Assembly: GCA_945882415.1 (NCBI GenBank)
Contig: CAMCWC010000003.1
Coordinates: 1-64,000, forward strand
Length of the DNA: 64,000 nt
Direction: 5' to 3'
Source of the DNA: Chthonomonas calidirosea
GTDB taxonomy: Bacteria > Armatimonadota > Fimbriimonadia > Fimbriimonadales > Fimbriimonadaceae
A program made the position numbers and the translations under genes. The notes under the pieces were generated by a model that saw nothing but the letters and a program-made list of their open reading frames with translations, was not told the origin of the DNA and did not search any database. Shown in pieces: positions 7,454-23,737 of this stretch (its first letter is position 1; every line of letters begins with the position of its first letter).

Positions 7454-8349
7454 CCGAGGTTCGGTCGGTTCTCGATTCCGGTGCGGATGGTGGCGAGGGT
7501 TTGCTCGCGCTCGACGCCGGTGAGGGGTAGGCGGGGGAGGCGCAGGTATTCCTTGCCGAGACCGACTTCTTGGATGGCGAGCTTGATTTTCTGAACGAAC
7601 TTGGTGCCGACGTCGAGGTGGAGGAGCGGGGTGTACCAGCGGTAGATCTCGCGGGCCTTTTCCCATTCACCGGCCATCGCGAGGTCCCAGAGCTTTTGAT
7701 TTTCGGCCGGGAAGGCAAGGCCGATTCCGGCGATCCAGCCGGTGGCGCCAAGAAAGGCGCACTCGAGGGCGAGGTCATCTACGCCGGCGAAGAGGACGTA
7801 GCGGTTGCCGACTTGATTGATGATGTCGGTGATGCGGCGGACGTCGCCGGAGGACTCTTTGATAGCGACGAGGTTGTCGACTTCGGCCAGAACTTCGAAC
7901 ATTTCTGGGGTCACGTCGGCGTGGTAGGCGATGGGGTTGTTGTAAACGATGATCGGGAGATCTGTGTTGTCCGCGACGGTTCGGTAGTGGGCCAGGGTCT
8001 CTTCTCGATCGGGCCGGAAGGCCATGGCGGGCATGAGCATGATGCCGTCGGCTCCAAGCTCTTGGACCGATTGCGTGTAGGCGACGGCGGCGGCGGTGCT
8101 GAGCTCGGCGACTCCGCTGAGAACGGGCACGCGGCCGTTTGAGACTTCGATGGCGGTCTTGAGGACGTCTTGCTTTTCTTGCGTGGTGAGGGTGACGTTC
8201 TCGCCGAGGGATCCGAGCATCACGAGGCCGGAGATTCCGGATTGGATGAGGGTTTCCAGGTGCGCGGCGGTGGCCTCCAGGTTAAGGGAGAGATCTTCGT
8301 GGAACTGAGTAGTGACCGCAGGAAAAACGCCGGACCAAGAGACGTGCAT
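7450..8349 (-). CDS. Dihydrodipicolinate synthase-family enzyme, probable pyrroline-4-hydroxy-2-carboxylate deaminase
   Basis: TIM-barrel aldolase/deaminase of the DapA family, 299 aa. The Schiff-base lysine is Lys164 in VAIKESSGD and the proton-relay tyrosine is Tyr136 in IIVYNNP; GSLGENVTLT corresponds to the GTTGE loop. DapA enzymes make lysine precursors, but this gene heads a hydroxyproline operon, so the deaminase that yields 2-oxoglutarate semialdehyde is the better reading. Start ATG at 8349; a GATACT -10-like hexamer ends six bases upstream, suggesting leaderless transcription of the whole operon. Confidence 0.85.
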   Translation of the reverse strand: MHVSWSGVFPAVTTQFHEDLSLNLEATAAHLETLIQSGISGLVMLGSLGENVTLTTQEKQDVLKTAIEVSNGRVPVLSGVAELSTAAAVAYTQSVQELGADGIMLMPAMAFRPDREETLAHYRTVADNTDLPIIVYNNPIAYHADVTPEMFEVLAEVDNLVAIKESSGDVRRITDIINQVGNRYVLFAGVDDLALECAFLGATGWIAGIGLAFPAENQKLWDLAMAGEWEKAREIYRWYTPLLHLDVGTKFVQKIKLAIQEVGLGKEYLRLPRLPLTGVEREQTLATIRTGIENRPNLG

Positions 8350-8355
8350 CGTTCG

Positions 8356-8361
8356 AGTATC
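8356..8361 (-). promoter_or_regulatory. -10-like hexamer for the hydroxyproline operon
   Basis: GATACT on the minus strand followed by exactly six bases (cgaacg) and the ATG of the DapA-family gene. Same spacing as many other genes here; a transcript would begin at or next to the start codon. No clear -35 seen. Confidence 0.4.
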
Positions 8362-8492
8362 CCATCTTCGAGGAGCTATTGCTGGAACGGATTGATACTG
8401 CGGCGGAGCCGAATGTTCGGTTTGCAGCGGCTATCGTGAAAGCGCTTGGCTCTGAAGCGCGCGGCGGCTATGATTTTGGCGTGGGAGGTGCA

Positions 8493-8993
8493 ATGCACGA
8501 ATACACGGTGGAATTCGATCCGGAGGCGATGCTACGGGCGCAGCGTGCCGCCTTGTGGACGTACAAGAGGGACTGGATTAAGTTTGGGTTTGTGCTCTGG
8601 TTTTGGAACTCAGTTCTGGGTGGACTGTGCTGGGCCCTTATTTCGAACGAAGTCCGGATTTATTCCATCCAGGCCCTGGTTACGACGCTACTCGTGGGTC
8701 TGCTTTTTGCCGTTTCTAGCGTCGTGGACTACATTCTCAAGATTGCAACAAGAGCAGGCATGAGGGCTCAGGAAGGAACGGTCTGGGATTGCTCGTTTGA
8801 CGATCTTGCTTGGTCATTTACCAAGCGTGGAGGCTCTACGTTGACCATTCCGTGGTCCCTGATGACCATTTCATATGAGCACGAGGATGCTTGGCTGGTG
8901 AGTTACGAGGAAACGGAGATTTGGATTTTCAGAGGAGCTCTACGAAAGGCGGGGCTGGAAGCGGAGTTTCTGAAGCGGCTCCGGTCTCCTTAA
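8493..8993 (+). CDS. YcxB-like membrane protein
   Basis: 166 aa with two adjacent hydrophobic segments (about residues 26-75) and a C-terminal part (WDCSFDDLAWSFTKRGG .. IPWSLMTISYEHEDAWLV) that resembles the YcxB-like C-terminal domain found in small Gram-positive membrane proteins. The ATG at 8493 is preceded by a good ribosome binding site (ggaggtg, 8483-8489), so the longer in-frame extension from 8379 is rejected. Function unknown; it stands alone between the divergent hydroxyproline operon and tRNA-Pro. Confidence 0.65.
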   Translation: MHEYTVEFDPEAMLRAQRAALWTYKRDWIKFGFVLWFWNSVLGGLCWALISNEVRIYSIQALVTTLLVGLLFAVSSVVDYILKIATRAGMRAQEGTVWDCSFDDLAWSFTKRGGSTLTIPWSLMTISYEHEDAWLVSYEETEIWIFRGALRKAGLEAEFLKRLRSP

Positions 8994-9043
8994 AGACAAT
9001 GAGCATGTTTCCGTAAGTGTCCGGTATGGACACACCTAAATTC

Positions 9044-9120
9044 TGGTCGGGGCGGCGGGATTCGAACCCACGACCTCATCCACCCCATGGATGCGCGCTA
9101 CCAAACTGCGCTACGCCCCG
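9044..9120 (-). tRNA. tRNA-Pro (anticodon GGG)
   Basis: Cloverleaf on the minus strand: acceptor CGGGGCG pairs with CGCCCCG, D-arm GCGC..GCGC, anticodon stem CATCC/GGATG around loop ATGGGGT with anticodon GGG, T-arm GTGGG-TTCGAAT-CCCGC, discriminator A. The 3' CCA is encoded in the DNA. C1 is typical of proline tRNA. Confidence 0.95.
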
Positions 9121-9158
9121 ATACGTTTCCGGCTCGGAAGATTTCAGGATACCCGTAC

Positions 9159-11342
9159 TTAGTTATCCGACCGGAATACGCTGAGGACGTTGGAGTAGTC
9201 GTCGGTCCAGGCTTTGGTGCCCGCGAAGGTGTCGACCTCGGACCACCAGCTCAACTTGCCGGACATTTTGCCTAGGTCCGACTTCTTTCGAACCACGAGC
9301 ATCCAGTTGGAGGAAGTTTTGCCTTCCAATTCTTCTTCCTTCGTGATGCCGTCGACTTGACTCCATGCGAGTAGGCCAAGCTCTTTGGCGTTTTGGCCAA
9401 CCACGGGTTCGAGGTCGAGGTAGCGGTTGGAGATGTGGACGGCGAGAACGCCATCCGGGGTGAGTTTCCGCATGTACATCGCAAACGCCTCTCGGGTGAG
9501 GAGGTGGACCGGGATGGCGTCGGAGCTGAAGGCGTCTAGCACGATGATTCCGTACTTTCCGTCCGGTTGCTGCGCAAGCGTCAGGCGGGCGTCGCCGAGG
9601 ACGTAGTCAATCTTCGCCTTGCTTTCCGAAACGTAGGTGAATAGCTTCGGATTCGTGGCGATTTCGACGACCTTCGGATCGATTTCGAAGAAGGTCATGT
9701 TCTGGCCGGATTCGCCGTAGCTGGCGAGCGAGCCGACGCCGAGGCCTACGAGGGCGACATTCTCTTTTCGGGTCGGACCGGAGAAGTTTTTGAAGACCTG
9801 ACCAATCGGGCCGGTGGGGTGATAGTAGGTCAGCGGCGTTTTCGAACCGACGAGGTTTTGCTTTCCGTGAAGGGTGTTTCCGTGAACGTAGTAGCGGCTC
9901 GTGGACGATTGAGACACGCGGTGAACGCCGAAGAAGCTGCGGTCTTGGACGAGGGTCTTTCCGCTGGAAACGGATCCGGCGAGGATCGAAACGGCGAAGA
10001 ACAATCCGAGAGAACCGGCCAACCGGAACGGTCGGTCGCTAGCGACGAAGCAGAGAACTACCGGCAACGCCAGCGTGAGAACGGTTCGCGTGGGTCCAAA
10101 TTGAAGCCGGAGCTGTTGGGCGATAGTGATCGCAACCAGTGTAATCACGCCGACGCCGACGATCCAGATGTAGTCGAACTTCTCTGCGTATTTTCCTTCC
10201 TTGTATGGAACCTTGACCGCGGCAACGGCGAGAAGCGCAAGCGGATATTCCCAAAGGTTGTTGAAGATTGACGGGGCCAAAAGGCCATTGAAGGCACCGC
10301 CAACGAGACCGCCGACGGAGACCCAGACATAGAATTCGGTGAGGTGCTTGGTGCCTGGTCGCTCATCGTAGAGGCGGGAATGGCACATCCAGGCGGCGAC
10401 GAAGAATGCCGCGAGGTGGACGAGGGCCGAGACGGGCTGGTGCTCTTCGAGAACGAGCATCACGAACAGCGGACATATGAGAAGCGGGGCGGCCCGGGAC
10501 AGTCCGTGGGTGGTGACGAACCGCTTGTTCGTAAAGGCTAAGTTAAACGTGAAGAGATAAAGCGCGAGGGGAACGACCCAGAGGAGCGGGATTGGGGCGA
10601 CGTTGGTGGTGACGAACTGGCTGACGCCGGTAAGCAAGCTGCTCGGAATCGCGGCAAGAAGCACCCAGAACGCGCGCTGTTTCCAGGTTAGGGCGGTTTC
10701 TTCGGTAGCGGCTTGGGCTTCGGTTACTACCGCCGGGGAGCGGAGCATCATAGCGGCGCAGCCGAGCATTCCTATCACCATTACTCCAAATACCGCGGTC
10801 CAGATTTGGCTTTGATCGATGAGGCGATATCGCGGTTCAAAGAAGAACGGATAAGCGAACAAGCCGAGCATCGAGCCGAGGTTGCTAGCCCCGTAAAGGA
10901 AGTAAGGGTCCTTCGCGCTCGGGTCGTTGGTTTCGCTGAACCACCTCTGAATGAGCGGGGCACCGGCGGAGACGATGAAGAACGGAATTCCGACCAATCC
11001 GGCTAGGGCTGCGATGACGAGCAAGCTGGGATTGGCATAGCCGACCGAGGCTTGGCTTTCGACCCATTTCCAGATCGGAGTGTTGAGGGTGAAAGGAAGC
11101 GCCAACCCGGCGAGGGCCATGAGGGGCAGGTGCAGAAACGGCTGCTTGCGTCCGAGCTTGGTCGTGCTGAAGTGCGCATACCCGTAGCCAAGGAGAAGGG
11201 CGGTTTGGAAGAAGACCAGCGAGGCGTTCCAAACCGCCGGTGCTCCGCCGAAGGTCGGCAAGATGAGCTTTGCGGCGAGCGGCTGAACCAGGAACAGCAA
11301 AAAGGAGCTGACGAACAGGGTGAGGGTGTACAGCGCGCGCAC
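9159..11342 (-). CDS. Fused membrane-transporter-like / spermidine synthase-like protein
   Basis: 727 aa in two parts. Residues 1 to about 470 form a polytopic region (start LYTLTLFVSSFLLFLVQPLAAK..) typical of the 'fused MFS/spermidine synthase' family. The C-terminal 250 residues are a Rossmann methyltransferase-like aminopropyltransferase domain: VALVGLGVGSLASYG, FFEIDPKVVEIA (acidic residue binding the nucleoside), and GDARLTLAQ .. IVLDAFSSDAIPVHLLT. Start is GTG at 11342. No S-adenosylmethionine decarboxylase is nearby, so true spermidine synthesis is not supported by context; the substrate may be another amine or a lipid-linked acceptor. Confidence 0.85.
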   Translation of the reverse strand: MRALYTLTLFVSSFLLFLVQPLAAKLILPTFGGAPAVWNASLVFFQTALLLGYGYAHFSTTKLGRKQPFLHLPLMALAGLALPFTLNTPIWKWVESQASVGYANPSLLVIAALAGLVGIPFFIVSAGAPLIQRWFSETNDPSAKDPYFLYGASNLGSMLGLFAYPFFFEPRYRLIDQSQIWTAVFGVMVIGMLGCAAMMLRSPAVVTEAQAATEETALTWKQRAFWVLLAAIPSSLLTGVSQFVTTNVAPIPLLWVVPLALYLFTFNLAFTNKRFVTTHGLSRAAPLLICPLFVMLVLEEHQPVSALVHLAAFFVAAWMCHSRLYDERPGTKHLTEFYVWVSVGGLVGGAFNGLLAPSIFNNLWEYPLALLAVAAVKVPYKEGKYAEKFDYIWIVGVGVITLVAITIAQQLRLQFGPTRTVLTLALPVVLCFVASDRPFRLAGSLGLFFAVSILAGSVSSGKTLVQDRSFFGVHRVSQSSTSRYYVHGNTLHGKQNLVGSKTPLTYYHPTGPIGQVFKNFSGPTRKENVALVGLGVGSLASYGESGQNMTFFEIDPKVVEIATNPKLFTYVSESKAKIDYVLGDARLTLAQQPDGKYGIIVLDAFSSDAIPVHLLTREAFAMYMRKLTPDGVLAVHISNRYLDLEPVVGQNAKELGLLAWSQVDGITKEEELEGKTSSNWMLVVRKKSDLGKMSGKLSWWSEVDTFAGTKAWTDDYSNVLSVFRSDN

Positions 11343-11366: not shown

Positions 11367-11762
11367 TTACATTGTAGTTAGCCAAGGAAGCTGTCGCAGG
11401 CGATCATCCGCGGTGGCCAGTGGGCAACGCAGTTGGTAGGCCGTGGCGGCGATGAACCGGTCAGCAGGATCTTCGTGAAGAAACGGCAAGGCTCTCGACA
11501 GCAGCGCGATCTCATGGTCCAGCGGAATCACGCGTAGCGAGCTTTGGGTTAACCATGCTCGAACGGTCAGTTCGGGGCTCGAGGTGGTGTGGATTCGGCC
11601 CTTTTGCATGGCTACAATTGTTTCCCAAACTGAGACCGAAGAAAGCGCGATCTCCGACTCCTCGGTTAGCGCCGCTTGAACACTAGGGTCAATTTTCTCG
11701 GGTTCCAAATTTGCCCAAATCCAGATGTGGGTGTCCAGCAAGATCAATCGAGGGCCTCCCAT
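11367..11762 (-). CDS. PIN-domain ribonuclease toxin (VapC-like)
   Basis: 131 aa PIN domain. Acidic metal-binding residues are visible: Asp10 in LLDTHIWIW, Glu in SVSVWETIV, Asp in HEDPADRFIAATA and Asp in LATADDRL. This set is that of VapC-type endoribonucleases, which cleave tRNA or rRNA when free of antitoxin. The ATG at 11762 overlaps the upstream antitoxin gene by 19 bases. A type II toxin-antitoxin operon in the order antitoxin-toxin. The exact RNA target cannot be inferred. Confidence 0.85.
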   Translation of the reverse strand: MGGPRLILLDTHIWIWANLEPEKIDPSVQAALTEESEIALSSVSVWETIVAMQKGRIHTTSSPELTVRAWLTQSSLRVIPLDHEIALLSRALPFLHEDPADRFIAATAYQLRCPLATADDRLRQLPWLTTM

Positions 11763-12085: not shown

Positions 12086-12982
12086 ATGCCAAAGCTTCGG
12101 CGACTCTGGGGATTGTTTGCCATCTGTGCCGGATCGACGGTGACCGCTTTTGTTGACGAACCCATTCGGGTGAAAAACGTGCTTGATCAGCCGGGATTTC
12201 CATTCGTCCGAATTCTCGGAGCTTGCGATATCACTTCTCGAGGCGCAACATGCTGGGATACAGAGGGGAAGCCATTTAAGTCGTTAGGTGAGTGGATCAC
12301 TGCCTACTACATCACGAATCAGCTCAACGACCTTACGATCAAGCCAGGGGCAAAGAATCGCTGGGTTGCCATTGAGCGGGAATCGGGTGACTCGATTGGA
12401 AGCTTTGATCAGTCCGCCCTCCGTAGCGGTTATCTTGGAGGCTTTGTGAAGAACTGGAGGACGAATACGCGTCTCGAATGGGTACGTGCGGATATCGTAA
12501 AGGATAACAAGTTTACATCGGTACCCATGAGTTTCCGAGAAGAGCTTCCGCCGGTTCGCCTTGAACTCAAGAGGGGAGCCACGGCGCAGGTCGGTGATCA
12601 TTTGATTACGGTCATCGACTTTGGTTTGAGAAAGAAATCGAAAGAGAAGCAAAAGATCGACGCGATCGGAAACCGGGAAAAGTATTTCGTACGCCTGAAA
12701 CTCAACAAGTCCACCAATGGTGGTTATCCATTTGATTGGGCTGTCGTACTCGCACAAGATGGATCTCAGATTCAACAAGTTGATGAGGCCGGAAAACCAG
12801 CTCGGTCAGGCGCGTCACAACGTCTCCTTCAAAGCGTCGAGCTCTCGGATGGCAGTAACTCATCGTTCGATCTGGATTATAAGACCAACGTTCAACCTCG
12901 ATTTATCGGTAGCCTTGAATTCAAACGCAGTCTAACTCGTCAGGTTGTGTTTGAGGGAATTCCGATTGATCCGAATCCTTAG
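12086..12982 (+). CDS. Secreted protein, unrecognised four-member paralogous family (member 1)
   Basis: 298 aa with a hydrophobic N-terminus (LRRLWGLFAICAGSTVTAF). I do not recognise the family. It shares with the genes at 13047, 14116 and 22118 an ordered set of blocks: IRVKNVLDQPGFPFVRILGACDI, a second cysteine in ATCWD followed by a G-K-P turn, KNRWV..E, LEWxR, the ELPP..L..K.GA..xVG block, and near the C-terminus NVxPxxxxxLEF..xxRxVVFExIPIDP. The two conserved cysteines, ten residues apart, could form a disulfide outside the cytoplasm. Start ATG at 12086. Function unknown. Confidence 0.75.
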   Translation: MPKLRRLWGLFAICAGSTVTAFVDEPIRVKNVLDQPGFPFVRILGACDITSRGATCWDTEGKPFKSLGEWITAYYITNQLNDLTIKPGAKNRWVAIERESGDSIGSFDQSALRSGYLGGFVKNWRTNTRLEWVRADIVKDNKFTSVPMSFREELPPVRLELKRGATAQVGDHLITVIDFGLRKKSKEKQKIDAIGNREKYFVRLKLNKSTNGGYPFDWAVVLAQDGSQIQQVDEAGKPARSGASQRLLQSVELSDGSNSSFDLDYKTNVQPRFIGSLEFKRSLTRQVVFEGIPIDPNP

Positions 12983-13046
12983 CAAGCTCTCAAAATTTGT
13001 TCATAAGGCCGACGTTAGTTGATAGGAGCTAGAAAAAGAAACATAA

Positions 13047-14033
13047 ATGGTTACTCGTAAGTGGGATATTGTAATGACCAGACTCATCGATTTTGTTCTA
13101 AGTCAACAAAGGGGGGCAGTGTTAGGAGTCTCTGTGATTGCAATCATGTCAACGGCGCATTTGACTCCGAGTCAGTCTTCACTTCGCGACATTGAGCCGA
13201 TCGTCGTGACGAATGTTCTGGATCAGCCAGGATTTCCGCTTACGAGAATTCTTGGCGTTTGTGAAATTACCGCCGAATCTGCGAAATGCTGGGATTCTCT
13301 GGGTAAGCCCTTGAACCCGCTCGCCGACCGCATCATTCGATACCACCAGGAACAAGAGTATCCGAGTCTTTCTATCCGACCTGGAGTAAAGAACCGCTGG
13401 GTTGTTATGGAGAGTGCGAATGCCTCAGAAGACGATTACCATCTAGCGTACACGGAACCTGGGAACTACGCTGGAGCGATTTCGGATTGGCGGCCCGGAA
13501 CGACGCTAAGCTGGAAACGGCTAGATGCTCCTTACGAGGATAAACACTCCAGACTCATTTGTAATTATCGAAAGCGAATGCCACCTGAACGATTGGCCGT
13601 GAAAAAAGGAGCAAAAGTAGATGTTGATGGAACTGAGATTTCGGTGACCGCGTTTGGGCGCAGGACGACCGCTCAGGTGAAAGCTGATCAGACTTCGTTT
13701 ATGGGACCATTGCGGTATCAGATCACTGTTAAGCGGTCAGAGCGGGACCCGGCACGAGCGCGGATAGACGAACCCATCCCGATAAGCATGGCGGGAAGGC
13801 AGATTGTTCGAGTCGATGGTAACGGTAAACCGATGGCAGCAGGATGGGAGCGAACGGACGCGGGCGTTGCCGTTTACGTAACATCCAACGCAGGACCGTT
13901 GAACGCACAAACGTACAGCCTGAACGTGGATCCGCAGTACGTTGCGCATTTGCAGTTCAGCATGAGCGCGGCGCGAAAAGTGATCTTCGAAGAGATTTTG
14001 CTCGACCCAGCAACGGCATTCTCGGGCAAATAG
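13047..14033 (+). CDS. Secreted protein, unrecognised four-member paralogous family (member 2)
   Basis: 328 aa; longer N-terminus than its siblings, with a hydrophobic segment GAVLGVSVIAIMSTAHL (about residues 23-39), so likely exported or anchored. Carries the family blocks VTNVLDQPGFPLTRILGVCEIT, SAKCWDSLGKP, VKNRWVVMES, LSWKRLDA, ERLAVKKGAKVDVDGTEISV, and the ending NVDPQYVAHLQF .. RKVIFEEILLDP. ATG at 13047 is taken as start; ATG at 13074 is also possible. It follows member 1 by 64 bases, same strand, so a tandem duplication and possible co-transcription. Confidence 0.75.
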   Translation: MVTRKWDIVMTRLIDFVLSQQRGAVLGVSVIAIMSTAHLTPSQSSLRDIEPIVVTNVLDQPGFPLTRILGVCEITAESAKCWDSLGKPLNPLADRIIRYHQEQEYPSLSIRPGVKNRWVVMESANASEDDYHLAYTEPGNYAGAISDWRPGTTLSWKRLDAPYEDKHSRLICNYRKRMPPERLAVKKGAKVDVDGTEISVTAFGRRTTAQVKADQTSFMGPLRYQITVKRSERDPARARIDEPIPISMAGRQIVRVDGNGKPMAAGWERTDAGVAVYVTSNAGPLNAQTYSLNVDPQYVAHLQFSMSAARKVIFEEILLDPATAFSGK

Positions 14034-14115
14034 ATTTGCTGAACGGAATCGATCTGCCAGCAAGGTCCGATTACACGGCGTTACTACGGCCCGGCGAGTG
14101 CGTCCAACCTCTGGC

Positions 14116-15054
14116 ATGCGAGGGACTCGGCAAGTTTTGGGATTAACGGCGATCATGGTGGTAGCGATGACCCAACTGGCGGCGGTGTATCTGGCGCAGG
14201 CGGGTGACGAAACGACCATCCGGGTGCGAGAAGTTTTGGATATGCCGGAGTTTCCGCTGGTGCACGTGGCTGGGGTTTGCGACATTACCGCCGACGGTGC
14301 GACTTGCTGGGACAATCAGGGGCGGCCGTTTAAGTCACTTGGCGAGCGGATCACGGCTTACTATCTGACGCAAAATTTCGCTAGCTTGGCGATTCGTCCG
14401 GGAGTGAAAAACCGCTGGGTGGCCTTCGAACGGACAGACCCGGCGCCGGATGCCACCTATCGCTACGGGGGATTTGAGTTTGGAAACACGGGCGGATACG
14501 TGAACGGTTGGCGGTCTGGGATGACGCTGGAGTGGGCACGCTTGGACATGCTGAAGGAAGACACGACAGCGCAAGTGGCGATCAATTTTAACCGCGAACT
14601 TTCGCCGGTCAAACTCGCGATGAAGAAAGGGGCCAGTGCAGATGTTGGTGGCTTGAAACTCACCGTTGCAGACTTTGGCCGCGCTGCGAAGCAAAAGCTA
14701 ACGGAGCGAAATACGTTCAGATCCGAAATTTTCAAGTACTTCGTCTCCATTAAACGCACCGAGCTTGCGGGCGCGGAGCAAAGTTTCACGACTCCGATTC
14801 CGCTGGATAAGACGAGTAAGGCGATTCAGTGGGTCAGCGAGAACGGCAAGCCAGCCGCGAGCGCGAGCGTCATGACGACCGGAGGAATGCCATTGCAGTT
14901 CTCTATCTCGACCGTCTCCGCGCCAGAAGTCAGATTCTCCACGAACGTCGATCCTTCGTGCATTGCCGAATTGCAGTTTGGACAGTATCAGCGCCGAAAG
15001 GTGATCTTCGAAAACATTCGGCTAGATCCAATCTCAAGCACCGGCGATCGTTAA
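14116..15054 (+). CDS. Secreted protein, unrecognised four-member paralogous family (member 3)
   Basis: 312 aa with signal-like N-terminus (LGLTAIMVVAMTQLAAVYLAQAGDE). Family blocks: IRVREVLDMPEFPLVHVAGVCDIT, ATCWDNQGRPFKSLGERITAYY, VKNRWVAFER, LEWARLD, ELSPVKLAMKKGASADVGG, and NVDPSCIAELQFGQYQRRKVIFENIRLDP. Closest to member 1 in the GATCWD..G.PFKSLGE..TAYY stretch. ATG at 14116 is preferred over an upstream GTG at 14098 because it starts a compact signal sequence. It converges with the subtilase gene. Confidence 0.75.
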   Translation: MRGTRQVLGLTAIMVVAMTQLAAVYLAQAGDETTIRVREVLDMPEFPLVHVAGVCDITADGATCWDNQGRPFKSLGERITAYYLTQNFASLAIRPGVKNRWVAFERTDPAPDATYRYGGFEFGNTGGYVNGWRSGMTLEWARLDMLKEDTTAQVAINFNRELSPVKLAMKKGASADVGGLKLTVADFGRAAKQKLTERNTFRSEIFKYFVSIKRTELAGAEQSFTTPIPLDKTSKAIQWVSENGKPAASASVMTTGGMPLQFSISTVSAPEVRFSTNVDPSCIAELQFGQYQRRKVIFENIRLDPISSTGDR

Positions 15055-15082: not shown

Positions 15083-16402
15083 TCAGAGTCCGGTTAGAGA
15101 GCCATAGACGTCTAGGCCGCCCTGACCCAAGTTTGGATCGGACAGCGGTTGGCTTCGAGACAGCGCACTCTGGAGGTCGCTGTACGTTGCCGTTGGCTTA
15201 TAGCGGAGGACCTTGAGGGCCAAGCCAGACACCAATGGCGCGCTGAAAGATGTGCCCCAGCCTCCGGCCCAGCGATTTCCGGGGAAGGGCAACATCAACC
15301 CTTCGCCGGGGGCGGCGACCCAGGTGAGGTCGGTGCCAGCATTGCTAAACAAACTGCGCGTGGAGTTTGGAGTGAGAGAAGCAACGCCGGTTACCTTCGG
15401 TAGGGCTGCGGGATAGCTCAGGGTGTTGATCCGTCCGTCGTTACCGGTCGAAGCAACCAGGATGACCCCAAGGTCTGACAGTTCATCGGAAGACCGAGCG
15501 AGCTCTGGCGAGTAAACGTAAGTGTTCAAACTCATGTTGATCACTTTTGCGCCGCGAGCTTGGGCGGCGTGCATTCCGCGGATCACGTCAAAGAGTCGGC
15601 CGGAACCGTTCTGGCTGAAGGCGCGAATCGGAAGAATTTTTGCGTTTGGGGCAACGAGCCGAATCGCGCCGGCCACCATTGTCCCGTGTCCAAGCCCTTT
15701 CGGAATGGCGCTATACGCTGGGTCGTTTATGGTGCTTTCGGGGAACATCGGGGCTGTTCCGTTCGAGAGCCAAGAGAGCTTGGTGCGCAGAAGGGGCGTG
15801 GTGGTTGGGTTCACCTGCGCGAGAACTTCTGGAGTCAGGCCGGTTAACTCGGAGCCTTGACCCGTGGGTGTGATGTAATCGTAACCGCGGAGTACGCGTC
15901 CGGCAAAGAACGGGTGTGTTGCATCAACCCCGGTGTCGATGACGGCGACGGTTCCATTTCCGAGGCTATGGGCCGTCCATGATGAGCCGATTCGAGCCTG
16001 CGCTACGGTGTATTGAGTAACCGCACCTTGAGGCGTCAAGGCCCCATAGAAGTTAACGTTGGTGGCGCGCAACAGCGCTTGCTGCAGCAGATTCAGCGAC
16101 GAAGTTTGTGGTCGCTTGAAAGAGAAAATGGGTAGCCGAATGGCCTGGTCTCTTTCGATCGTGACGTCTCCATCCGTTTCGCCATCAATCTGTTGGATCA
16201 GCATTTGCGGATCGCGATTGAGTGAATCCTGGATGGAGTAGATCGGTTTGCCGGGCACCGTCGCGCGCAGTCGGAGGTTGTAGCGGGCCAGAAACGTGCC
16301 GATCGGTTCGGTTTCCGTGTACCGGAGGATGTAGTTCTGATTCGCACTTGAGAGTGCGCAGAGAAGGGCAGCCATGCCCAGGGTTGCAACTTGTCTTTTC
16401 AT
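15083..16402 (-). CDS. Secreted subtilisin-like serine protease (S8 family)
   Basis: 439 aa. Signal peptide (residues 1-20), then a propeptide-like segment (about 22-95), then the subtilase domain. The catalytic triad is complete: Asp156 in VAVIDTGVDATHP, His239 in GLGHGTMVAG, Ser385 in GTSFSAPLVSG; the oxyanion Asn321 is in ASTGND. It acts outside the cytoplasm. Last gene of a coupled operon: its ATG overlaps the upstream stop as ATGA (16399-16402). Being co-expressed with a sigma factor and a CHAT protease, it may be an effector or processing protease of that regulon. Identity of the family is certain, the substrate is not. Confidence 0.92.
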   Translation of the reverse strand: MKRQVATLGMAALLCALSSANQNYILRYTETEPIGTFLARYNLRLRATVPGKPIYSIQDSLNRDPQMLIQQIDGETDGDVTIERDQAIRLPIFSFKRPQTSSLNLLQQALLRATNVNFYGALTPQGAVTQYTVAQARIGSSWTAHSLGNGTVAVIDTGVDATHPFFAGRVLRGYDYITPTGQGSELTGLTPEVLAQVNPTTTPLLRTKLSWLSNGTAPMFPESTINDPAYSAIPKGLGHGTMVAGAIRLVAPNAKILPIRAFSQNGSGRLFDVIRGMHAAQARGAKVINMSLNTYVYSPELARSSDELSDLGVILVASTGNDGRINTLSYPAALPKVTGVASLTPNSTRSLFSNAGTDLTWVAAPGEGLMLPFPGNRWAGGWGTSFSAPLVSGLALKVLRYKPTATYSDLQSALSRSQPLSDPNLGQGGLDVYGSLTGL

Positions 16403-16917
16403 AACTCAACCTCGTAAATGTCGCCGGTCTGGATGTCCTCAAACGTCAGTTTCTTTACTGCCGACTCAATGGTCAACTCGAACTGACCGCCTTCATCGCA
16501 CCAAACGGGCCCTGACTTGGTGGCCGAAACTCGAACATTTGAAGCCTCTATGGTTTGGAATAGTCCAACCACCGCAACGGATTTTGACTTTGGAATTGGC
16601 TCCAAGCGGAGTTCGACTTGCGCAGTGCCAAACTCAAAACGAAGGTCGCGTGCGGTGGAGGCGGCACTTCGCATTCCTACCCCACTGCTGGAGAAGGTCA
16701 GAATGCCCTTCCATATTTTCTTTGGCGGGAGAGAAGGCTGCAGGGCCTTAGCTCGGTCTAGCATCTCTTCCGGCACGGCCGTGGGTTTCGCGCCGCGAAC
16801 GCGGCGAAGCATCATCGCCTGCTCAAGCGCAACAGGGTCAGATTCGATGCGAATGGCTTCTGGCTCAGTCGCCAGACCCAAAGCGTAATTAACGATCTCT
16901 TCCCAGTTGACTTTCAT
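16399..16917 (-). CDS. Small soluble two-part protein between CHAT protease and subtilase; possible sigma regulator or CHAT substrate
   Basis: 172 aa, not recognised. Residues 1-60 are helical and polar (MKVNWEEIVNYALGLATEPE.. VALEQAMMLRRVRG), reminiscent of the N-terminal helix of anti-sigma factors but with no zinc motif. Residues 70-172 alternate hydrophobic and polar residues as in a beta-sandwich (GILTFSSSG .. RFEFGTAQVELRLEP .. FELTIESAVKKLTFEDIQTGDIYEVEL). No membrane segment or signal peptide. Start ATG at 16917 lies 40 bases after the CHAT stop; the stop overlaps the subtilase ATG. Context makes a cleavable regulator attractive, but this is inference. Confidence 0.7.
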   Translation of the reverse strand: MKVNWEEIVNYALGLATEPEAIRIESDPVALEQAMMLRRVRGAKPTAVPEEMLDRAKALQPSLPPKKIWKGILTFSSSGVGMRSAASTARDLRFEFGTAQVELRLEPIPKSKSVAVVGLFQTIEASNVRVSATKSGPVWCDEGGQFELTIESAVKKLTFEDIQTGDIYEVEL

Positions 16918-16957
16918 TCGACCTCCGTATTCTATGGGCAGCGGGCACGGGAAAGCA

Positions 16958-19429
16958 TCACAAGTTTTTTTGAAGTGGTTTTCCGAATAGGGCAAACGGT
17001 GCCCAGTCGGCGGGATGCGGGTACCGATCTCTCGTTGCCGCGATCGCCAGTTCGTATGCCGGGAAAGGGCCCTTTGGCAGTGCCGCGTAAAACGCGGACA
17101 TGAAGAAGCTGGTGGCTTCATCCGAAACATCCCAGAGGGTTGCCAACACGGCGGTTGCGCCGGATACAAGAAATGCTTCGATGAACCCTTCGGAATCTAG
17201 GTGATCGCCAAGGTTAGAGACTCCGGTCGAGCAGCCACTCAGGGTCACGAGTTCGGCTTGCAGTTGTACGGTTGCAATGTCTAAGACCGTCAGGTCCTTG
17301 TCGCCTAGCTTCATTGCGCTTAAAAGGGGCTGGTCTTCCTTTGCTACCCCGTGCGCGGCGAGATGAATCCAGCGGGCAGTGGGAGCATGATCCAGAAAGG
17401 CTCCGGCCATCACAGGCTCAGTTCCGAGGGATTTCGCGACGCTGGCGACTTCGGCATCAATGAGGGGCGCGTTTTCATCACCTTTGCCGCAGACGAGGGC
17501 GCCGCTACCGTTCCCGGTGCGATCTGAAAGTGCCGCAAACACGGAGGCGCTTGGGGCGTACGTGACTTTTGCGTCCGGAAAAATGGCGTGGAACGGGACG
17601 GATCGTAACGGGGTCTCGCGACCGATGATGAGTCTTGTCTCGCCCGCGGATATCGGAAGGAGGGCATCTCGGAGTTGCGAAAGTACTTCGGTCGCACCTT
17701 TTCCTCTCTCGATGCGCGCTCGCCCAAGATGAAACCGAAGGAGCCGCGAGAGCCGTTCGAACTTTGCAACCGGTCCGAGGCGGTGTTCCGTTATCCCTTC
17801 TGCATCCAGGACAAAAGCGATAAGTTCACCTTCATCAGCGAAAAGTTCAACGAATCGCTTGCCGGGTTCAACGATGGGTAGCTGCACTTTCGACACGGCA
17901 CCCTCCGTAAGGTTTCTGGCCTCACGAAGTTCCTGCTCCGAGGTGATGGTTGGGATGGCTTCGGGAGATTGAATCAGTTCGGCCAAAGCGTGATTCTTCA
18001 GGCGAACTACGACCTGGAGTCTCTCTTTCGGGTCGCTAAATGCGCGGAATGCTTCGCGTAGCCGCAGAGATTGCGCTTGCGCGGTGGCTTGCCGCAGCCG
18101 GGACGCGCCGAGCTTGGTTCGGGTGCGGTCATATGCTTCTAGCCCCTGACGAGCAAATGCTTGCGCTTCAGACGGGTTGTGCCGTAGCCGATGGAATTTG
18201 GTGAGCAGGAAGGGTTCGGGCGGCATGCGCTCAAAGGTGGCAAGCTCGCCGAGGTCGAGGGCGAGGTCGGCAAGTTCGGATTGAATGTGGGGCAAGCGTT
18301 CGGGGGCGGGTCCAGCAGATTCGGCTAAGGTTAGCTCGGCAAACGCCCGCCGATCGCGGCCATGGGCCCTCAATAGCTCCGCGAACCCAGAGTGAAGCAG
18401 CGATCGCCAGTTTGCATTTGGCTCTCGTTTCAACAGCTTTCGCGCTTCCTTTAGCGCGGCTTCTCCAGCGGGCAAGTCGTTTTTGCGAATGAGCGCCGTG
18501 CTTTCGAATAGCTTAGCTTTTCCGGTTTCGAACCTGGCTCCGAGCTTTTGGAAGACGTCGGCGGCTCTCGATGCTGCTTGGTGGGCGTCGGTCCAGAGCC
18601 CATACTCGAGCATAAAGTCAGCCTGATCCAGGAAGCAGTGCCCCAGTTCGAACCCCATTTCAGCGGGCAGATTTAGTCGAAGGTCTCTGTATAGCTTTAA
18701 CGCTTCCTGAAGGTGACCTTGGCGGCCGAGGAGGTAGGCCCGGTTTAGGTCGATCTCGAAGACAAGAGAGTGCTGTTCGGCAGCTTCGAAGACCAAGCGC
18801 GCTTCGGCATACATCCTTTCCGCGGATTCGAAATCGAGCAACCCCATCAGGCAAACGCCGAAGTTTCGCGTCACGATCGTGAGGTCGGCAATCGCTCCGG
18901 CATCGGACAAGACGGCGCAAGCTGATTCATAGTGGGTCCTGGCTTCTTGGAGACGATCCAGGCGATGGAGCGCGTTCGCCAGATTTGCCTCGACCCGAGC
19001 GGCTCGGAAGGTGTTGCCTGCCTCTCGAAAGAAGCTGAGCGACTCTTGGGCGATGTGAAAGGCTTGCTCATATTCTCCCGTGTAGGCCAGCGCCTGGAGC
19101 ATGGCGACAGCGGTGGCTGCACGCTCCTCCGGCGAATCGACAAACGCTTCTCGTGCGCGGAGGTAGCAGGGCACGGCACGTTTGGCTCTGCCTGCCAGCA
19201 GGTGCACGTGCCCTTCTAGGCGCGATGCTTGGCCAACGGAAACTGGGTTTTTGAGTCGTTTTGCCAGCCGAGACGCATTGATCGCAAGTTGGCGTGCGGC
19301 ATTGAGATCTTGTCGGATCACCGCGAGGCCCTCGGTGGTCAGGGCAGTGACCGTGTCGGCCGTCACCAGATGGCGTGGGGCGGATGTGCGGGCCGATTTG
19401 GCAGCAACGATGTATTCCGCTAAGGTCAA
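16958..19429 (-). CDS. TPR-CHAT caspase-like protease
   Basis: 823 aa. The N-terminal half (about 40-430) consists of tetratricopeptide-type helical pairs (e.g. ANLANALHRLDRLQEARTHYESA, LNRAYLLGRQGHLQEALKLYRD). The C-terminal 270 residues form a CHAT domain: catalytic His about 693 in HLAAHG and Cys about 733 in LSGCSTG, with the usual following WDVSDEATSFFM. Both catalytic residues are intact. It begins with TTG at 19429, overlapping the sigma-factor stop (TTGA), so the two proteins are made together. CHAT proteases are activated by partners and cut specific targets; the coupled sigma factor or the small downstream protein are the obvious candidates. Confidence 0.88.
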   Translation of the reverse strand: MTLAEYIVAAKSARTSAPRHLVTADTVTALTTEGLAVIRQDLNAARQLAINASRLAKRLKNPVSVGQASRLEGHVHLLAGRAKRAVPCYLRAREAFVDSPEERAATAVAMLQALAYTGEYEQAFHIAQESLSFFREAGNTFRAARVEANLANALHRLDRLQEARTHYESACAVLSDAGAIADLTIVTRNFGVCLMGLLDFESAERMYAEARLVFEAAEQHSLVFEIDLNRAYLLGRQGHLQEALKLYRDLRLNLPAEMGFELGHCFLDQADFMLEYGLWTDAHQAASRAADVFQKLGARFETGKAKLFESTALIRKNDLPAGEAALKEARKLLKREPNANWRSLLHSGFAELLRAHGRDRRAFAELTLAESAGPAPERLPHIQSELADLALDLGELATFERMPPEPFLLTKFHRLRHNPSEAQAFARQGLEAYDRTRTKLGASRLRQATAQAQSLRLREAFRAFSDPKERLQVVVRLKNHALAELIQSPEAIPTITSEQELREARNLTEGAVSKVQLPIVEPGKRFVELFADEGELIAFVLDAEGITEHRLGPVAKFERLSRLLRFHLGRARIERGKGATEVLSQLRDALLPISAGETRLIIGRETPLRSVPFHAIFPDAKVTYAPSASVFAALSDRTGNGSGALVCGKGDENAPLIDAEVASVAKSLGTEPVMAGAFLDHAPTARWIHLAAHGVAKEDQPLLSAMKLGDKDLTVLDIATVQLQAELVTLSGCSTGVSNLGDHLDSEGFIEAFLVSGATAVLATLWDVSDEATSFFMSAFYAALPKGPFPAYELAIAATRDRYPHPADWAPFALFGKPLQKNL

Positions 19430-19998
19430 CCGATACCCCGGGCGCGCAGCGACTTCTCTAGTGCCTCCAAGCAGCGCTGCCGGGTCATCACGATGGACGC
19501 CGGTTTGAGGCCCATCGCCTGCGCCACATCGGCGTATCTTTGCGGCGTTTCGTCAAAAAAGAGCCGCATGATGAGCTCTTGGCATTTTGGAGATTGCGTT
19601 TGGACCGCGTCGCGGATGGTTTGTGCGGTTTCCGTTTGCTCCAACTCCGCGGCCAGATCGTGGTCCGAAACAAAGTACTCGACGTCCTCGAGCGAGACTT
19701 CGCCGGAGGCTACTTTTTTCCGCACGCGAACGGCGTGGCGCAGGGTGGTTTGGCGGAGCCAGGGGGTCAGCAAATCCACGTTTTTAAGTTGCGGGAGCGC
19801 TTTGAAGAGCTCGATGAAAACGTGCTGAAATGCGTCCGATTGATCTGATTCTGGAACGCGAAACGTTTTTAGCAGGCTGTAAACGTAGCCTGAGTATCGA
19901 TCAACAAGCGCCCCCCAAGCTTCGGGGTTTCCAGCTTGCGCAAGTTTAATGAAGTCGGCATCATTTCCGCGTGGGGCACGCAACGGAGACTCCGACAT
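19426..19998 (-). CDS. ECF-type sigma factor
   Basis: 190 aa sigma-70 family protein. Region 2 spans about residues 20-90 (AWGALVDRYSGYVYSLLKTF, DAFQHVFIELFKAL, TPWLRQTTLRHAVRVRKK) and region 4 about 125-188 (CQELIMRLFFDETPQRYADVAQAMGLK..SIVMTRQRCLEALEKSL), with no region 1.1 or 3, so ECF-like. ATG at 19998 is chosen because a TATCAT hexamer lies exactly six bases before it; the longer frame to 20193 runs through the divergent promoter. First gene of the operon sigma, TPR-CHAT, small protein, subtilase. Confidence 0.88.
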   Translation of the reverse strand: MSESPLRAPRGNDADFIKLAQAGNPEAWGALVDRYSGYVYSLLKTFRVPESDQSDAFQHVFIELFKALPQLKNVDLLTPWLRQTTLRHAVRVRKKVASGEVSLEDVEYFVSDHDLAAELEQTETAQTIRDAVQTQSPKCQELIMRLFFDETPQRYADVAQAMGLKPASIVMTRQRCLEALEKSLRARGIG

Positions 19999-20004
19999 AG
20001 CTGA

Positions 20005-20010
20005 ATGATA
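20005..20010 (-). promoter_or_regulatory. -10-like hexamer for the sigma/CHAT operon
   Basis: TATCAT on the minus strand, six bases before the sigma-factor ATG. Predicts a leaderless operon transcript. The 100-base gap to the divergent gene at 20099 must hold both promoters. Confidence 0.45.
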
Positions 20011-20098
20011 CGTCTTGCCGCGAAGAATTATTGTTATGGATCGGTCAGTGCCTTGCCCTAGATGGTTGTAGCCGGGTTTTCCGGCCTCAGGAAAAACA

Positions 20099-21010
20099 AT
20101 GAAGAACCTTCTTTTGCTTGCACTTAGCTTGTGCTCTGTTACTGCCCTCGCGAACAACGTGAGCGCCGAGATCTCCAGCAGCGACCTGAACATTCAGGGC
20201 GACGAGTTTGGCAACCAGATCCGCATCGACCGCACGGTCAACGGCGTTCGAGTCGTCGGGCTCAACGGAACGCTCGTCAACGGTCGACCTAGCGTCGCTT
20301 TCGTTTCGGGGCCACTCGTCAACATCACCATGTTGATGGATGCTGGCGATGACGCGGTTACCTTCCGCAATGTGACAAACCTTGGAGACGTGATCCTCTC
20401 TGCAGGCGATGGCAATGACACCATCACGGTTAACGGCAGCGGATCCGAAACCAACCTCGACCTCAAGGGCGAAGCTGGAAACGACCGCATTTTCGTGACG
20501 AACAGCACGGTTCTGGGAGATTTGCGAATGGATGGCGGCATCGGCGCAAACACACTTCGAGCAACCAACTCCTCGGCCGGAAACAACTTGAGCGCATTTG
20601 GCGGAGATTTGGCGGACCGAATCGACCTCAGCGGACTGCGGATCGGCGGAAACTTGGAAGTATTCGCGGATAAAGGCAACGACGTGGTCAACATAACGAC
20701 GGCGGCGGTGGGTCTCAGCGCAGTTGTCAGCACCGATGAGGGCCTCGACCGACTTGCGCTTTCGGGAATTCAGACTGGCCAGGACTTTGTGATCGAAACC
20801 GGAGCGCAGAACGATGTTGCGTCGCTCACCAACATCCTCAGTGCCGGCTCGATCGGAATAAGTTTGGACTCTGGCAACGACCAGCTTACGGCAACCAACG
20901 TGCAGGCACAGCTTGATGCGGTGGCGATTGGCGGCGCTGGCTCTGACCGATTCACCCGAACCGCCTTTGGTGGGTTCAACAAGACCGAAGTCGTTGAGTT
21001 CGAGTTCTGA
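20099..21010 (+). CDS. Secreted repeat protein with RTX-like glycine/aspartate turns
   Basis: 303 aa with signal peptide (MKNLLLLALSLCSVTALAN). The body repeats a motif of about 20-25 residues, D-x-G-x-G-D-D/N-x-(V/I)-x-(V/L/I), for example MDAGDDAVTF, SAGDGNDTITV, GEAGNDRIFV, DKGNDVVNI, LDSGNDQLTA, GGAGSDRFTR. This resembles calcium-binding RTX nonapeptides but with longer spacing, consistent with a beta-roll or beta-helix. It is transcribed divergently from the sigma/CHAT operon with 100 bases between start codons, so it may be a target of that sigma factor. No catalytic domain. A terminator follows. Confidence 0.7.
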   Translation: MKNLLLLALSLCSVTALANNVSAEISSSDLNIQGDEFGNQIRIDRTVNGVRVVGLNGTLVNGRPSVAFVSGPLVNITMLMDAGDDAVTFRNVTNLGDVILSAGDGNDTITVNGSGSETNLDLKGEAGNDRIFVTNSTVLGDLRMDGGIGANTLRATNSSAGNNLSAFGGDLADRIDLSGLRIGGNLEVFADKGNDVVNITTAAVGLSAVVSTDEGLDRLALSGIQTGQDFVIETGAQNDVASLTNILSAGSIGISLDSGNDQLTATNVQAQLDAVAIGGAGSDRFTRTAFGGFNKTEVVEFEF

Positions 21011-21094: not shown

Positions 21095-21604
21095 CTAGCT
21101 GGGTGCTCGAGCGGCGAGGAGGGTGTCGATCGGAGCATAAAGGCGCATGGTGTTGCCTTTGAGGGGCAAAAAACCACGGCGTATGTAGTAGTCGTAGGCG
21201 AGCTGATCAATCGCATGGAGTTCAAGTGCGTGCACTCCCACCGTGGCGGAAGCGGCAATCGCGAGATCGGCGGCGTGGGCGAGGAGCATTGACGCGATAC
21301 CTTTCCCCGCGAATCGCGTGTCGGTGCCCAGGCGCGCCACGTGGAGAACAGGCATTGGGTGCTTCGGCAACCTTGAAAACACGGACTCATCTGCGTCCTG
21401 CAGCAAAACACTGCCCATCGCGACGGAAAAATAGCCGAGGACATCGGCCTTACCTTCTTCTACGGCTACGTAGGTTTTTGTAAAGTTGCGCTCTTGGTGC
21501 TGGCGAGCTAGGGTTTTGATGTAGGCATCAATCTCGCTATTCCCGCATGAAAAGTTCTTGCGGGAATGGCGCTTTTCTAGAACCTCAATCCGTACGCTTG
21601 CCAA
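21095..21604 (-). CDS. GNAT acetyltransferase toxin (TacT-like)
   Basis: 169 aa GNAT fold. The acetyl-CoA pyrophosphate loop is in LGTDTRFAGKGIASMLL and the catalytic tyrosine region is YDYYIRRGFLPL near the C-terminus. The upstream neighbour is a DUF1778 antitoxin, the standard partner of TacT/AtaT toxins, which acetylate aminoacyl-tRNA and stop translation. Start is TTG at 21604, four bases after the antitoxin stop. The target tRNA is not predictable. Confidence 0.85.
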   Translation of the reverse strand: MASVRIEVLEKRHSRKNFSCGNSEIDAYIKTLARQHQERNFTKTYVAVEEGKADVLGYFSVAMGSVLLQDADESVFSRLPKHPMPVLHVARLGTDTRFAGKGIASMLLAHAADLAIAASATVGVHALELHAIDQLAYDYYIRRGFLPLKGNTMRLYAPIDTLLAARAPS

Positions 21605-21608
21605 CGGT

Positions 21609-21902
21609 CTAGAGAATCACCTTACGGGTGTTTACGGTCCGTTTGAGTGCGTCGGATGGTGACGGAGGGTTTGTCATCAGCTCAACAAACGAGTCTCGGG
21701 CTTCGCCGCTGATTAGCGTAAGGTTGTACTGTTGCTTTACCTGTCGAGCGCGTTCTACGAGGGCCTGGGTGGCAAATGCAGTGAACGTTGATCCGAGCAT
21801 TGCCGCGGCTTCTTCAACTTCAAGCTTCAGTTCTTTAGACATCCGAAACTCCACTCGTGGACTTGCTTCGGCGATGGAGAGCTTGGTTCCGGGCTGGTTC
21901 AT
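21609..21902 (-). CDS. DUF1778 (TacA-like) antitoxin
   Basis: 97 aa ribbon-helix-helix antitoxin: RVEFRMSKELKLEVEEAAAMLGSTFTAF.. is the DNA-binding part, and the tail (ARDSFVELMTNPPSPSDALKRTV) is the toxin-wrapping region that ends as usual in a 'NPP.P..AL' motif. ATG at 21902 is fixed by a perfect TATAAT six bases upstream and by an overlapping palindrome; a longer frame to 22025 is rejected. Confidence 0.88.
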   Translation of the reverse strand: MNQPGTKLSIAEASPRVEFRMSKELKLEVEEAAAMLGSTFTAFATQALVERARQVKQQYNLTLISGEARDSFVELMTNPPSPSDALKRTVNTRKVIL

Positions 21903-21908
21903 GACTAG

Positions 21909-21929
21909 ATTATACGGCAATTCGCCGTA
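21909..21929 (-). promoter_or_regulatory. TATAAT and operator palindrome of the GNAT/DUF1778 module
   Basis: A perfect TATAAT (21909-21914, minus strand) lies six bases before the antitoxin ATG and overlaps an inverted repeat TACGGC-aattc-GCCGTA (21913-21929). Position fits autoregulation by the antitoxin complex and a leaderless mRNA. Confidence 0.6.
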
Positions 21930-22117
21930 AGCAGATGGCCAGCCTTCCTCGGGTGGGACCATCCGCTTCCTGACTGGCAAACTAAACATTTCCCAGCAAC
22001 GGCCAAACGCGCAATTCTGGTACATCTCAAACGTTCAGCAATTTTAATACTGCAACTCCTTGAAGTCCTAGCTCTTTCCCCGTTATGCGGAGCTAAGTGA
22101 GACGTCACGAATCATTA

Positions 22118-23056
22118 ATGCGGCATAAACGTCAACTCCTCTTTGGTTCTGGCTTGTTTGGGCTTGCCTTGGCGCCTGCGGCAGTGCAGCAATTCTCCTC
22201 CGTCGGGATTGACGAGGTTATACGGGTTCGAGAGGTACTGAAAGTACCGGGGCTTCCGGCGGTTCGGGTTGTGGGGGTGTGCGAAGTTTCGCCAGATGGC
22301 GCTACGTGCTGGGATGGCAAGGGCAAGCCGTTGCGGTGGATTGGAGAGCGGATTACGGCGTATTACGCGGAGCAAAGTTCGGCGACCGTGGCGATTCGGC
22401 CGAAGGTGAAGAATCGATGGGTAGTCATCGAGCGGGAGGAAGTGACTCCTAGGTCGTTCTTCTACTTTAGCCAGTGGACGGGCTCAGGCCGGGCGGGCGC
22501 AGTCAAAGGTTTGACCGATGGGAAGGTGCTGGAATGGTATCGGCTGGAGGCGGGAAAATTTGATGTGGTTGCTTCCTTCGATGTCCTTCTCAGGAAGGAG
22601 CTTCCGAAAATTGAGATGCCACTCAAAAAAGGGGCGGTCGTTGAGGTTGACGGGCTTCAGTTAACTTTGTTAGAGTTCGGAGAAATTGATGGCGAACTGA
22701 TGGAACTCGATAGATTCTATTGGCGTGCGGCGCCGACAAAGTACCGTCTGTTGTTTAAGAAGGCTACGGCAAATGCGACAAGAAAGGCATGGACCTTGCC
22801 GTCGCTGGTGCCTAGTCAGGACCGCGCGAGTGGGAAGGCGGCGGTTGACGGAAAACCGCAGTTCAGAGACATCGTTTTAAGCGGAGATACCGGGGTCCAC
22901 ACTTGGATCAACTACCCTTCTGCAGGAGAAGTTGAGTACCGGATAAACGTGGACCCGCGCAATTATTCGAGTCTGCAGTTTTGGCCCGTTGAGGAACGGA
23001 CGGTTGTATTTGAGCAGATTCCGCTTGATCCAATTGCTGAATCCACCAAAAAGTAA
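22118..23056 (+). CDS. Secreted protein, unrecognised four-member paralogous family (member 4)
   Basis: 312 aa, dispersed sibling of the tandem trio at 12-15 kb. Signal-like N-terminus (LLFGSGLFGLALAPAAVQQF). Family blocks are all kept: IRVREVLKVPGLPAVRVVGVCEVS, GATCWDGKGKPLRWIGERITAYY, VKNRWVVIER, LEWYRLE, ELPKIEMPLKKGAVVEVDGLQLTL, and NVDPRNYSSLQFWPVEERTVVFEQIPLDP. ATG at 22118 preferred to GTG at 22097. It lies 7 kb from the others, with the sigma/CHAT operon and a toxin-antitoxin pair in between. Function unknown. Confidence 0.75.
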   Translation: MRHKRQLLFGSGLFGLALAPAAVQQFSSVGIDEVIRVREVLKVPGLPAVRVVGVCEVSPDGATCWDGKGKPLRWIGERITAYYAEQSSATVAIRPKVKNRWVVIEREEVTPRSFFYFSQWTGSGRAGAVKGLTDGKVLEWYRLEAGKFDVVASFDVLLRKELPKIEMPLKKGAVVEVDGLQLTLLEFGEIDGELMELDRFYWRAAPTKYRLLFKKATANATRKAWTLPSLVPSQDRASGKAAVDGKPQFRDIVLSGDTGVHTWINYPSAGEVEYRINVDPRNYSSLQFWPVEERTVVFEQIPLDPIAESTKK

Positions 23057-23071
23057 AAGGCTATTCGGATA

Positions 23072-23737
23072 TCAGCTTTTGGCTCCCCAGACCTTCGCGA
23101 TGACGGCGAAGGCTTCGGGGTCGTGGGTTTTGAGTTCGGCTTTGACGAAGGGGTAGAAGTCGTTTTGGCCGAAGTAGGCTTCGCTGGCTTCGGCGAAGTA
23201 CTCCATCGGGTTGGTTTTGGCGTAGTGGGCGGTGGTTTTGCCGTCCCAGTGCAGCACGGCGTCGTAGCGCTTGGCATCTAGGTTGAACCGGTAAGCGGTG
23301 GCGACTTCTTTGTTCTCGAATCCGTTGGGCAGAAAGCGGTGGTGGTAGGCGTGGGCCAGCTCGTGGAGGACCATCCACGGTTGCTGTTCGGTCCAGCTGA
23401 GGAAGTTATCGGCGTTTCCGACTTCGATGGCGTGCTCCATTGCCGGGTTCATGCTGTGCTCGCGCAGCCACTGCGCGCCGGGGTGGTAGGCCATGCAGCG
23501 GGTTTCGGGCGAGGTGTTGTGGATGTAGATCGGGACCTGGTTCAGCTTTTGCAGGGCGGGTTTCGGGATGACGCGATTGATGCCGAGGAGTTGGCGATGC
23601 AACTCGGTCCGCACCGCCGCCCACGTCTGCGCACGCGATTTGATAAGGCTGGACTCGACGACGAGGGAGAAGCCGTCGAGCTTGAGATTCGTGTAAGCGG
23701 GCGGGGCGATTACGGTCAGGCAGAGCGCGGCAAGCAT
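23072..23737 (-). CDS. Putative secreted zinc metallopeptidase (HExxH)
   Basis: 221 aa with a short hydrophobic N-terminus. Contains HELAHAYHH (about residues 125-133), the HExxH zinc and catalytic motif, and a downstream NPMEYFAEASEAYFG in which a glutamate could be the third zinc ligand, as in gluzincins. I cannot place it in a named family. ATG at 23735-23737. Converges with the paralog at 22118. Likely an extracytoplasmic peptidase or cell-wall-related protein; the substrate is unknown. Confidence 0.6.
   Translation of the reverse strand: MLAALCLTVIAPPAYTNLKLDGFSLVVESSLIKSRAQTWAAVRTELHRQLLGINRVIPKPALQKLNQVPIYIHNTSPETRCMAYHPGAQWLREHSMNPAMEHAIEVGNADNFLSWTEQQPWMVLHELAHAYHHRFLPNGFENKEVATAYRFNLDAKRYDAVLHWDGKTTAHYAKTNPMEYFAEASEAYFGQNDFYPFVKAELKTHDPEAFAVIAKVWGAKS

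Follow-up and report, generated by a model that had tools for sequence, protein, structure and literature searches.

A group of four reverse-strand genes in Chthonomonas calidirosea (contig CAMCWC010000003.1) places an ECF-type sigma factor beside a caspase-like TPR-CHAT protease, a small protein of 172 aa and a secreted subtilase, with a further secreted protein encoded divergently upstream. This raises the question of whether the products form a single regulatory switch and, if so, which of them would hold the sigma factor and which would release it. The genes lie in a 64,000-nt stretch of DNA, referred to here as the window (Table 1). The four-gene operon of the preliminary description, with its coordinates and translational couplings, is borne out by the sequence: the stop of the sigma gene and the TTG start of the TPR-CHAT gene overlap in TTGA, the subtilase start overlaps the gene of the 172-aa protein in ATGA, and a gap of 40 bp, carrying a strong GGAGG site, separates the TPR-CHAT gene from that of the 172-aa protein. 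The CHAT gene of the cassette is the single one found across the 3.36-Mb genome, and an Rfam scan returned a tRNA as its sole match.

Table 1. Features of the cassette and the adjoining divergent gene, in window coordinates.
Feature	Position	Strand	Description and basis
ECF-type sigma factor	19426..19998	-	190 aa, regions 2 and 4; sigma70-ECF TIGR02937
TPR-CHAT caspase/separase-like protease	16958..19429	-	823 aa, TTG start; CHAT + TPRs
Soluble anti-sigma factor (predicted), small protein	16399..16917	-	172 aa; profile chain, RsiW match, AF2
Secreted subtilase (S8)	15083..16402	-	439 aa, signal peptide; Peptidase_S8
Divergent secreted repeat protein	20099..21010	+	303 aa; beside class A cassette, 8/113 genomes
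GGAGG ribosome-binding site, anti-sigma gene	16922..16926	-	read directly in sequence
Arg83 codon of anti-sigma factor, proposed cleavage point GMR/S	16669..16671	-	invariance, loop 78-89
Conserved 30-bp bipartite block, candidate sigma-dependent promoter	20030..20059	-	AGGG..A, 23 nt on TRACA
CHAT dyad codons, H693 and C733	17351-17353 (H693), 17231-17233 (C733)	-	conserved 37/37

Gene products and conservation of the cassette

The TPR-CHAT product carries TPRs and a CHAT domain that is readily recognized by Pfam (E 6.9e-31; 108 bits against a cut-off of 24). Its H693/C733 dyad is invariant in all 37 CHAT proteins compared, and among solved folds separase and Csx29 come closest to its AF2 model (pLDDT 88.7). 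Domain, dyad and fold together identify it as a CHAT protease with predicted peptidase activity. The sigma gene product matches TIGR02937 over residues 26-183 (53.4 bits, cut-off 42.9, E 2.3e-14), has SigH (4e-9) and RpoE (2.2e-5) among solved structures as relatives, and is classed by sequence as an ECF sigma factor with regions 2 and 4 only. The subtilase (Peptidase_S8, E 9.2e-35) shows the triad D156, H239 and S385, which is kept in 35 of 35 relatives, and the catalytic residues named earlier for both proteases proved to be exact.

The gene set, for which the preliminary description proposed conservation as a check, is conserved among related genomes. CHAT relatives were found in 51 of the 113 genomes of the order, and in 28 of the 40 neighbourhoods read there the sigma gene adjoins the CHAT gene, nearly always together with the genes of the small protein and the subtilase. 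The order sigma-CHAT-small protein-S8 (class A) is seen at 9 loci besides the window itself, one of which (L041) ends at the contig end past the CHAT gene. The order sigma-small protein-CHAT-S8 (class B), usual outside the window's clade, is seen at 19 loci, one of them (L068) showing no S8 match. Eight further loci, found via the small protein in other families of the phylum, have the small-protein gene followed by the CHAT gene; their sigma gene lies upstream, divergent in L111 and up to about 1.7 kb off in the others, and an S8 gene is within reach in seven of the eight. Because loci were picked through the CHAT or the small protein the sampling is biased, and the reverse count is the cleaner test: with a small-protein profile run across the phylum, 41 of the 45 strong matches adjoin a CHAT gene, the other four lying at contig ends.

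Each of the four protein trees recovers class A as a monophyletic group, with support of at least 0.98. The distance matrices of the four proteins are correlated (Mantel r 0.72-0.92, and 0.48-0.81 inside class B), so that the set is not only conserved but co-inherited. Since it recurs in many genomes and its four proteins co-vary, the association is more than a chance one. The gene order of the window is probably the derived one, as the order small protein-CHAT-S8 is present in both other groups. The genes flanking the cassette in the window are common to its closest relative (G023) alone and are absent from the other class A loci; the conserved unit is the cassette, not its surroundings.

The unconserved flanks, together with a patchy distribution, the toxin-antitoxin genes nearby and the recurrence of CHAT proteases in defence, would also fit a defence module akin to type III-E CRISPR or to CHAT conflict systems, which would be triggered by infection and would end in cell death or in an attack on the wall. 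However, a PADLOC scan of the cassette matched subtilase models alone, and the outputs look secreted, making a role in defence very unlikely.

At one class A locus (L044; G077:C47, about 7808-9401) the CHAT gene is split and without the middle TPR region (query residues 212-512), representing either a decayed copy or an assembly error; the anti-sigma and subtilase genes of this locus look intact. The annotated CHAT genes on the plasmids that were opened (Caballeronia, Streptomyces, Abditibacteriota) have no annotated sigma or anti-sigma gene adjoining them, and a tblastn search of plasmids with one small protein gave no match. On one Streptomyces plasmid (L128, 130-6702) the CHAT protein adjoins annotated CATRA conflict-system genes, which is a different CHAT context.

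Relation of the 172-aa protein to anti-sigma factors

If the cassette is a regulatory unit, the nature of its small protein is central. The 172-aa protein has no family match in Pfam or NCBIfam. Profile comparisons link the small proteins of class A to those of class B (98.7%, E 1.6e-16) and to those from the other families (96.6%, E 6e-10), and the latter in turn to canonical anti-sigma factors of the membrane type from the same phylum (97.7%, E 1.5e-12). A direct comparison of the class A proteins with the canonical factors is weak (18.5%), so that the link to anti-sigma factors runs through intermediates. Among solved structures, the anti-sigma domain of RsiW is the top match for both family profiles (E 0.0017 and 0.0077). 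The AF2 model of the 172-aa protein (mean pLDDT 89) has helices at residues 5-12, 18-26, 28-42 and 50-58, followed by a C-terminal beta-sandwich (about residues 68-172); a Foldseek search with the protein gave weak SOD/Ig-like beta-sandwich matches alone, none reaching E 0.001.

The zinc-binding motif H-x3-C-x2-C occurs in 8 of the 18 class B small proteins and, as H-x3/4-C-x2-C, in 8 of 8 from the other families (16 of 35 overall). The remaining 10 class B proteins are without it, as are all nine of the window's clade (class A). As judged from profiles and predicted structure, the 172-aa protein is a cryptic, degenerate anti-sigma factor, with a four-helix domain (about residues 1-60) that has lost its zinc ligands. 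It is also read as soluble, since a hydrophobic membrane segment is not seen in the sequence. Its earlier nomination as the partner that holds the sigma factor gains from this homology to anti-sigma factors, and binding is predicted. It resembles ZAS factors such as RsiW in its helical N-terminal domain and in the motif that its relatives retain, but differs from them in being without a membrane segment, in its beta-sandwich C-terminus and in the loss of ligands in the window's clade. The strong ribosome site of its own gene, as against the overlapping TTG of the CHAT gene, would fit an inhibitor that is made in excess of the protease.

Zinc-type anti-sigma domains can sense directly (RsrA/ChrR types), and all genes of the cassette sit in one operon. 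The anti-sigma factor might then itself be the sensor (of metal, redox state or a ligand, via the beta-sandwich), with the CHAT protease and the subtilase as mere outputs of the sigma factor that act elsewhere. This appears unlikely, as the zinc ligands are gone in the whole of the window's clade and in those 10 class B proteins while the linkage of CHAT to the small protein is kept in every testable locus, and as the Csx29 precedent places the protease upstream.

The pairing of sigma, CHAT and subtilase genes, pointed out in the preliminary description, is present but is not new in itself. In a review (PMC8999054, after Casas-Pastor 2021), sigma factors of group ECF54 are described as having a conserved CHAT protein, a subtilase and a protein with a 'carboxypeptidase' domain nearby; proteolytic control is proposed for them, an anti-sigma factor is said to be absent, and the listed model member is actinobacterial. 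Compared by this description of ECF54 alone, the present loci are similar in having a CHAT and a subtilase gene next to that of the sigma factor, and differ in that their small protein is an anti-sigma homologue, whereas ECF54 is reportedly without one. One small protein of the cassette family has a weak match to CarboxypepD_reg (E 0.004), so that the third ECF54 neighbour may be this very protein, its anti-sigma half having gone unnoticed. With the 172-aa protein, a predicted inhibitor can be named that the review calls absent from CHAT-linked ECF sigma factors (PMC8999054).

The published proposal for that group, as given in the same review (PMC8999054), could be extended to the cassette: the protease would destroy or activate the sigma factor directly, no anti-sigma factor being involved, and the small protein would serve as an adaptor. 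Little credence is given to this here, in view of the homology between the small protein and anti-sigma factors, and because Craspase cuts only Csx30, not RpoE (PMC9729208).

DdvA, a transmembrane anti-sigma factor (PDB 8rot, 8rw5, 8rlz), likewise brings anti-sigma and CHAT domains together in one system. The CHAT profile of the cassette matches the DdvA CHAT domain (E 1.2e-6), and the small-protein profile weakly matches the DdvA anti-sigma domain (E 0.4). Judging by the titles and chain names of the entries, both domains appear to be part of one membrane protein in DdvA, while here they belong to two separate, soluble proteins. From these matches, one solved protein seems to join functions that are held here by separate genes, and DdvA is possibly a fused relative of the two-protein arrangement.

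The proposed proteolytic switch and its candidate cleavage point

In the switch that is favoured here, the soluble 172-aa anti-sigma factor would bind and silence the ECF sigma factor by its N-terminal helical domain. On sensing a signal through its TPR arm, the TPR-CHAT protein would cut the anti-sigma factor with its caspase-like CHAT domain; the flexible loop with Arg83 is the most likely site. The freed sigma factor would transcribe the operon that encodes it and the secreted subtilase, and probably also the gene of the divergent secreted protein. Taken as a whole, a switch in which the CHAT protease cuts the anti-sigma factor and so frees the sigma factor is considered reasonably probable, and it would provide a compact, testable bacterial case of caspase-like proteolysis steering transcription.

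The precedent of type III-E CRISPR systems counts in its favour, as the C-terminal domain of Csx30 has a small flexible loop that Csx29 cuts, which lifts the inhibition of CASP-sigma (PMC10028731). The parallel with type III-E drawn in the preliminary description, which concerned the sigma factor and the TPR-CHAT protein, extends to the inhibitor: a TPR-CHAT protease, an ECF sigma factor and a (here predicted) sigma-binding inhibitor occur in one locus (PMC10028731, PMC9729208), matching the published logic of Csx29, Csx30 and CASP-sigma (PMC10028731), and the fold likeness to Csx29 and separase belongs to the same parallel. The inhibitors differ, that of the cassette being of 172 aa as against 565 aa and containing a domain that descends from zinc anti-sigma factors. 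The score of the TPR-CHAT protein with the Csx29 family model (31.5 bits) is far below the cut-off of 300, and neither Cas7-11 nor Csx30 was found among the cassette or flanking genes looked at. A broader proposal, which is put forward tentatively and with some doubt, is that a CRISPR-free sigma/anti-sigma/caspase switch, with a soluble anti-sigma factor cut by the separase-like CHAT protease at one invariant arginine, is widespread in the phylum and represents the general form, the type III-E version being CRISPR-recruited. If true, it would overturn the view of ECF groups with CHAT neighbours as being without anti-sigma factors, and it hints at the source of the sigma-factor branch in type III-E CRISPR.

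The arginine in question, Arg83, is invariant in 47 of 47 small-protein homologues (35 of 35 in the first set, and 12 of 12 members read afterwards and not used in finding it), although their mean pairwise identity is 21%; the second-best column is conserved in 42 of 47. It falls within the loop of residues 78-89, where the block 81-90 has the lowest AF2 confidence of the model (64), and the residue that follows is small (G or S) in 32 of the 47. A cut by CHAT after Arg83, between GMR and S, is proposed as a hypothesis on the grounds of this invariance, of the position in the least-ordered loop and of the cutting of Csx30 by Csx29 in a flexible loop. Arg83 could instead be structural. The proposal amounts to a single-residue prediction.

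The specificity of separase offers a comparison. Residue D2151 of separase, which we take to be Cys+41 in its numbering, has by this spacing Ser774 as its equivalent here, a variable position, and specificity for arginine is therefore not predicted by the separase route. The invariant D770 was considered as the equivalent of D2151 and was dropped, as it lies at Cys+37 and not at Cys+41. In separase, D2151 is the residue that reads the P1 arginine (PMC9729208); its equivalent in Csx29, which cleaves after Leu407, is K670 (PMC9729208). An alignment with Csx29, in which the published K670 marks the position (PMC9729208), also puts the equivalent at the variable Ser774, and D770 was rejected as an arginine pocket on this count as well.

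The divergent gene, the intergenic block and neighbouring genes

The divergent secreted protein is present in 8 of the 113 genomes, all of them within the ten class A genomes, and its gene is always adjacent and divergent to the cassette. The chance of such a placement arising at random is about 1e-10 by our arithmetic, which ignores kinship. Its suspected connection with the cassette is thus upheld, a conserved intergenic block lying between the two, and the protein is likely to be part of the unit in the window's clade. The label 'RTX-like' given to it earlier has no Pfam or NCBIfam match behind it.

The intergenic block, between the divergent gene and the sigma gene, has AGGG and TRACA elements at a fixed 23-nt spacing. 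In 7 class A loci no other site scores as high, each locus being scored with a matrix that leaves out the locus itself and its near twin; the class A loci L037, L043 and L044 lack the block. Such a spacing is compatible with an ECF promoter, and the block is a candidate for a sigma-dependent promoter. A search of the window's own genome with the block pattern found no sigma target past this intergenic block; its one other match, on contig 31, has a glycosyltransferase-like gene downstream.

On both sides of the cassette (nt 12086-15054 and 22097-23056, both on the plus strand) lie the genes of four paralogous proteins that look secreted, about 300-330 aa long and 31-41% identical. Three of the four were scanned and gave no Pfam match, and the family occurs beside the cassette in the closest relative only. 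A GNAT acetyltransferase adjoins a TacA-type antitoxin at nt 21095-22025 (minus strand), likely forming a toxin-antitoxin pair beside the cassette; the stretch retrieved from the closest relative (L036) does not show this pair. Beyond it, at nt 23072-23737 (minus strand), is a 221-aa protein with a metallopeptidase-like HELAH motif and sub-threshold Pfam matches only, and on the other side, at nt 11367-11762 (minus strand), there is a PIN-domain protein that is a candidate VapC-like toxin.
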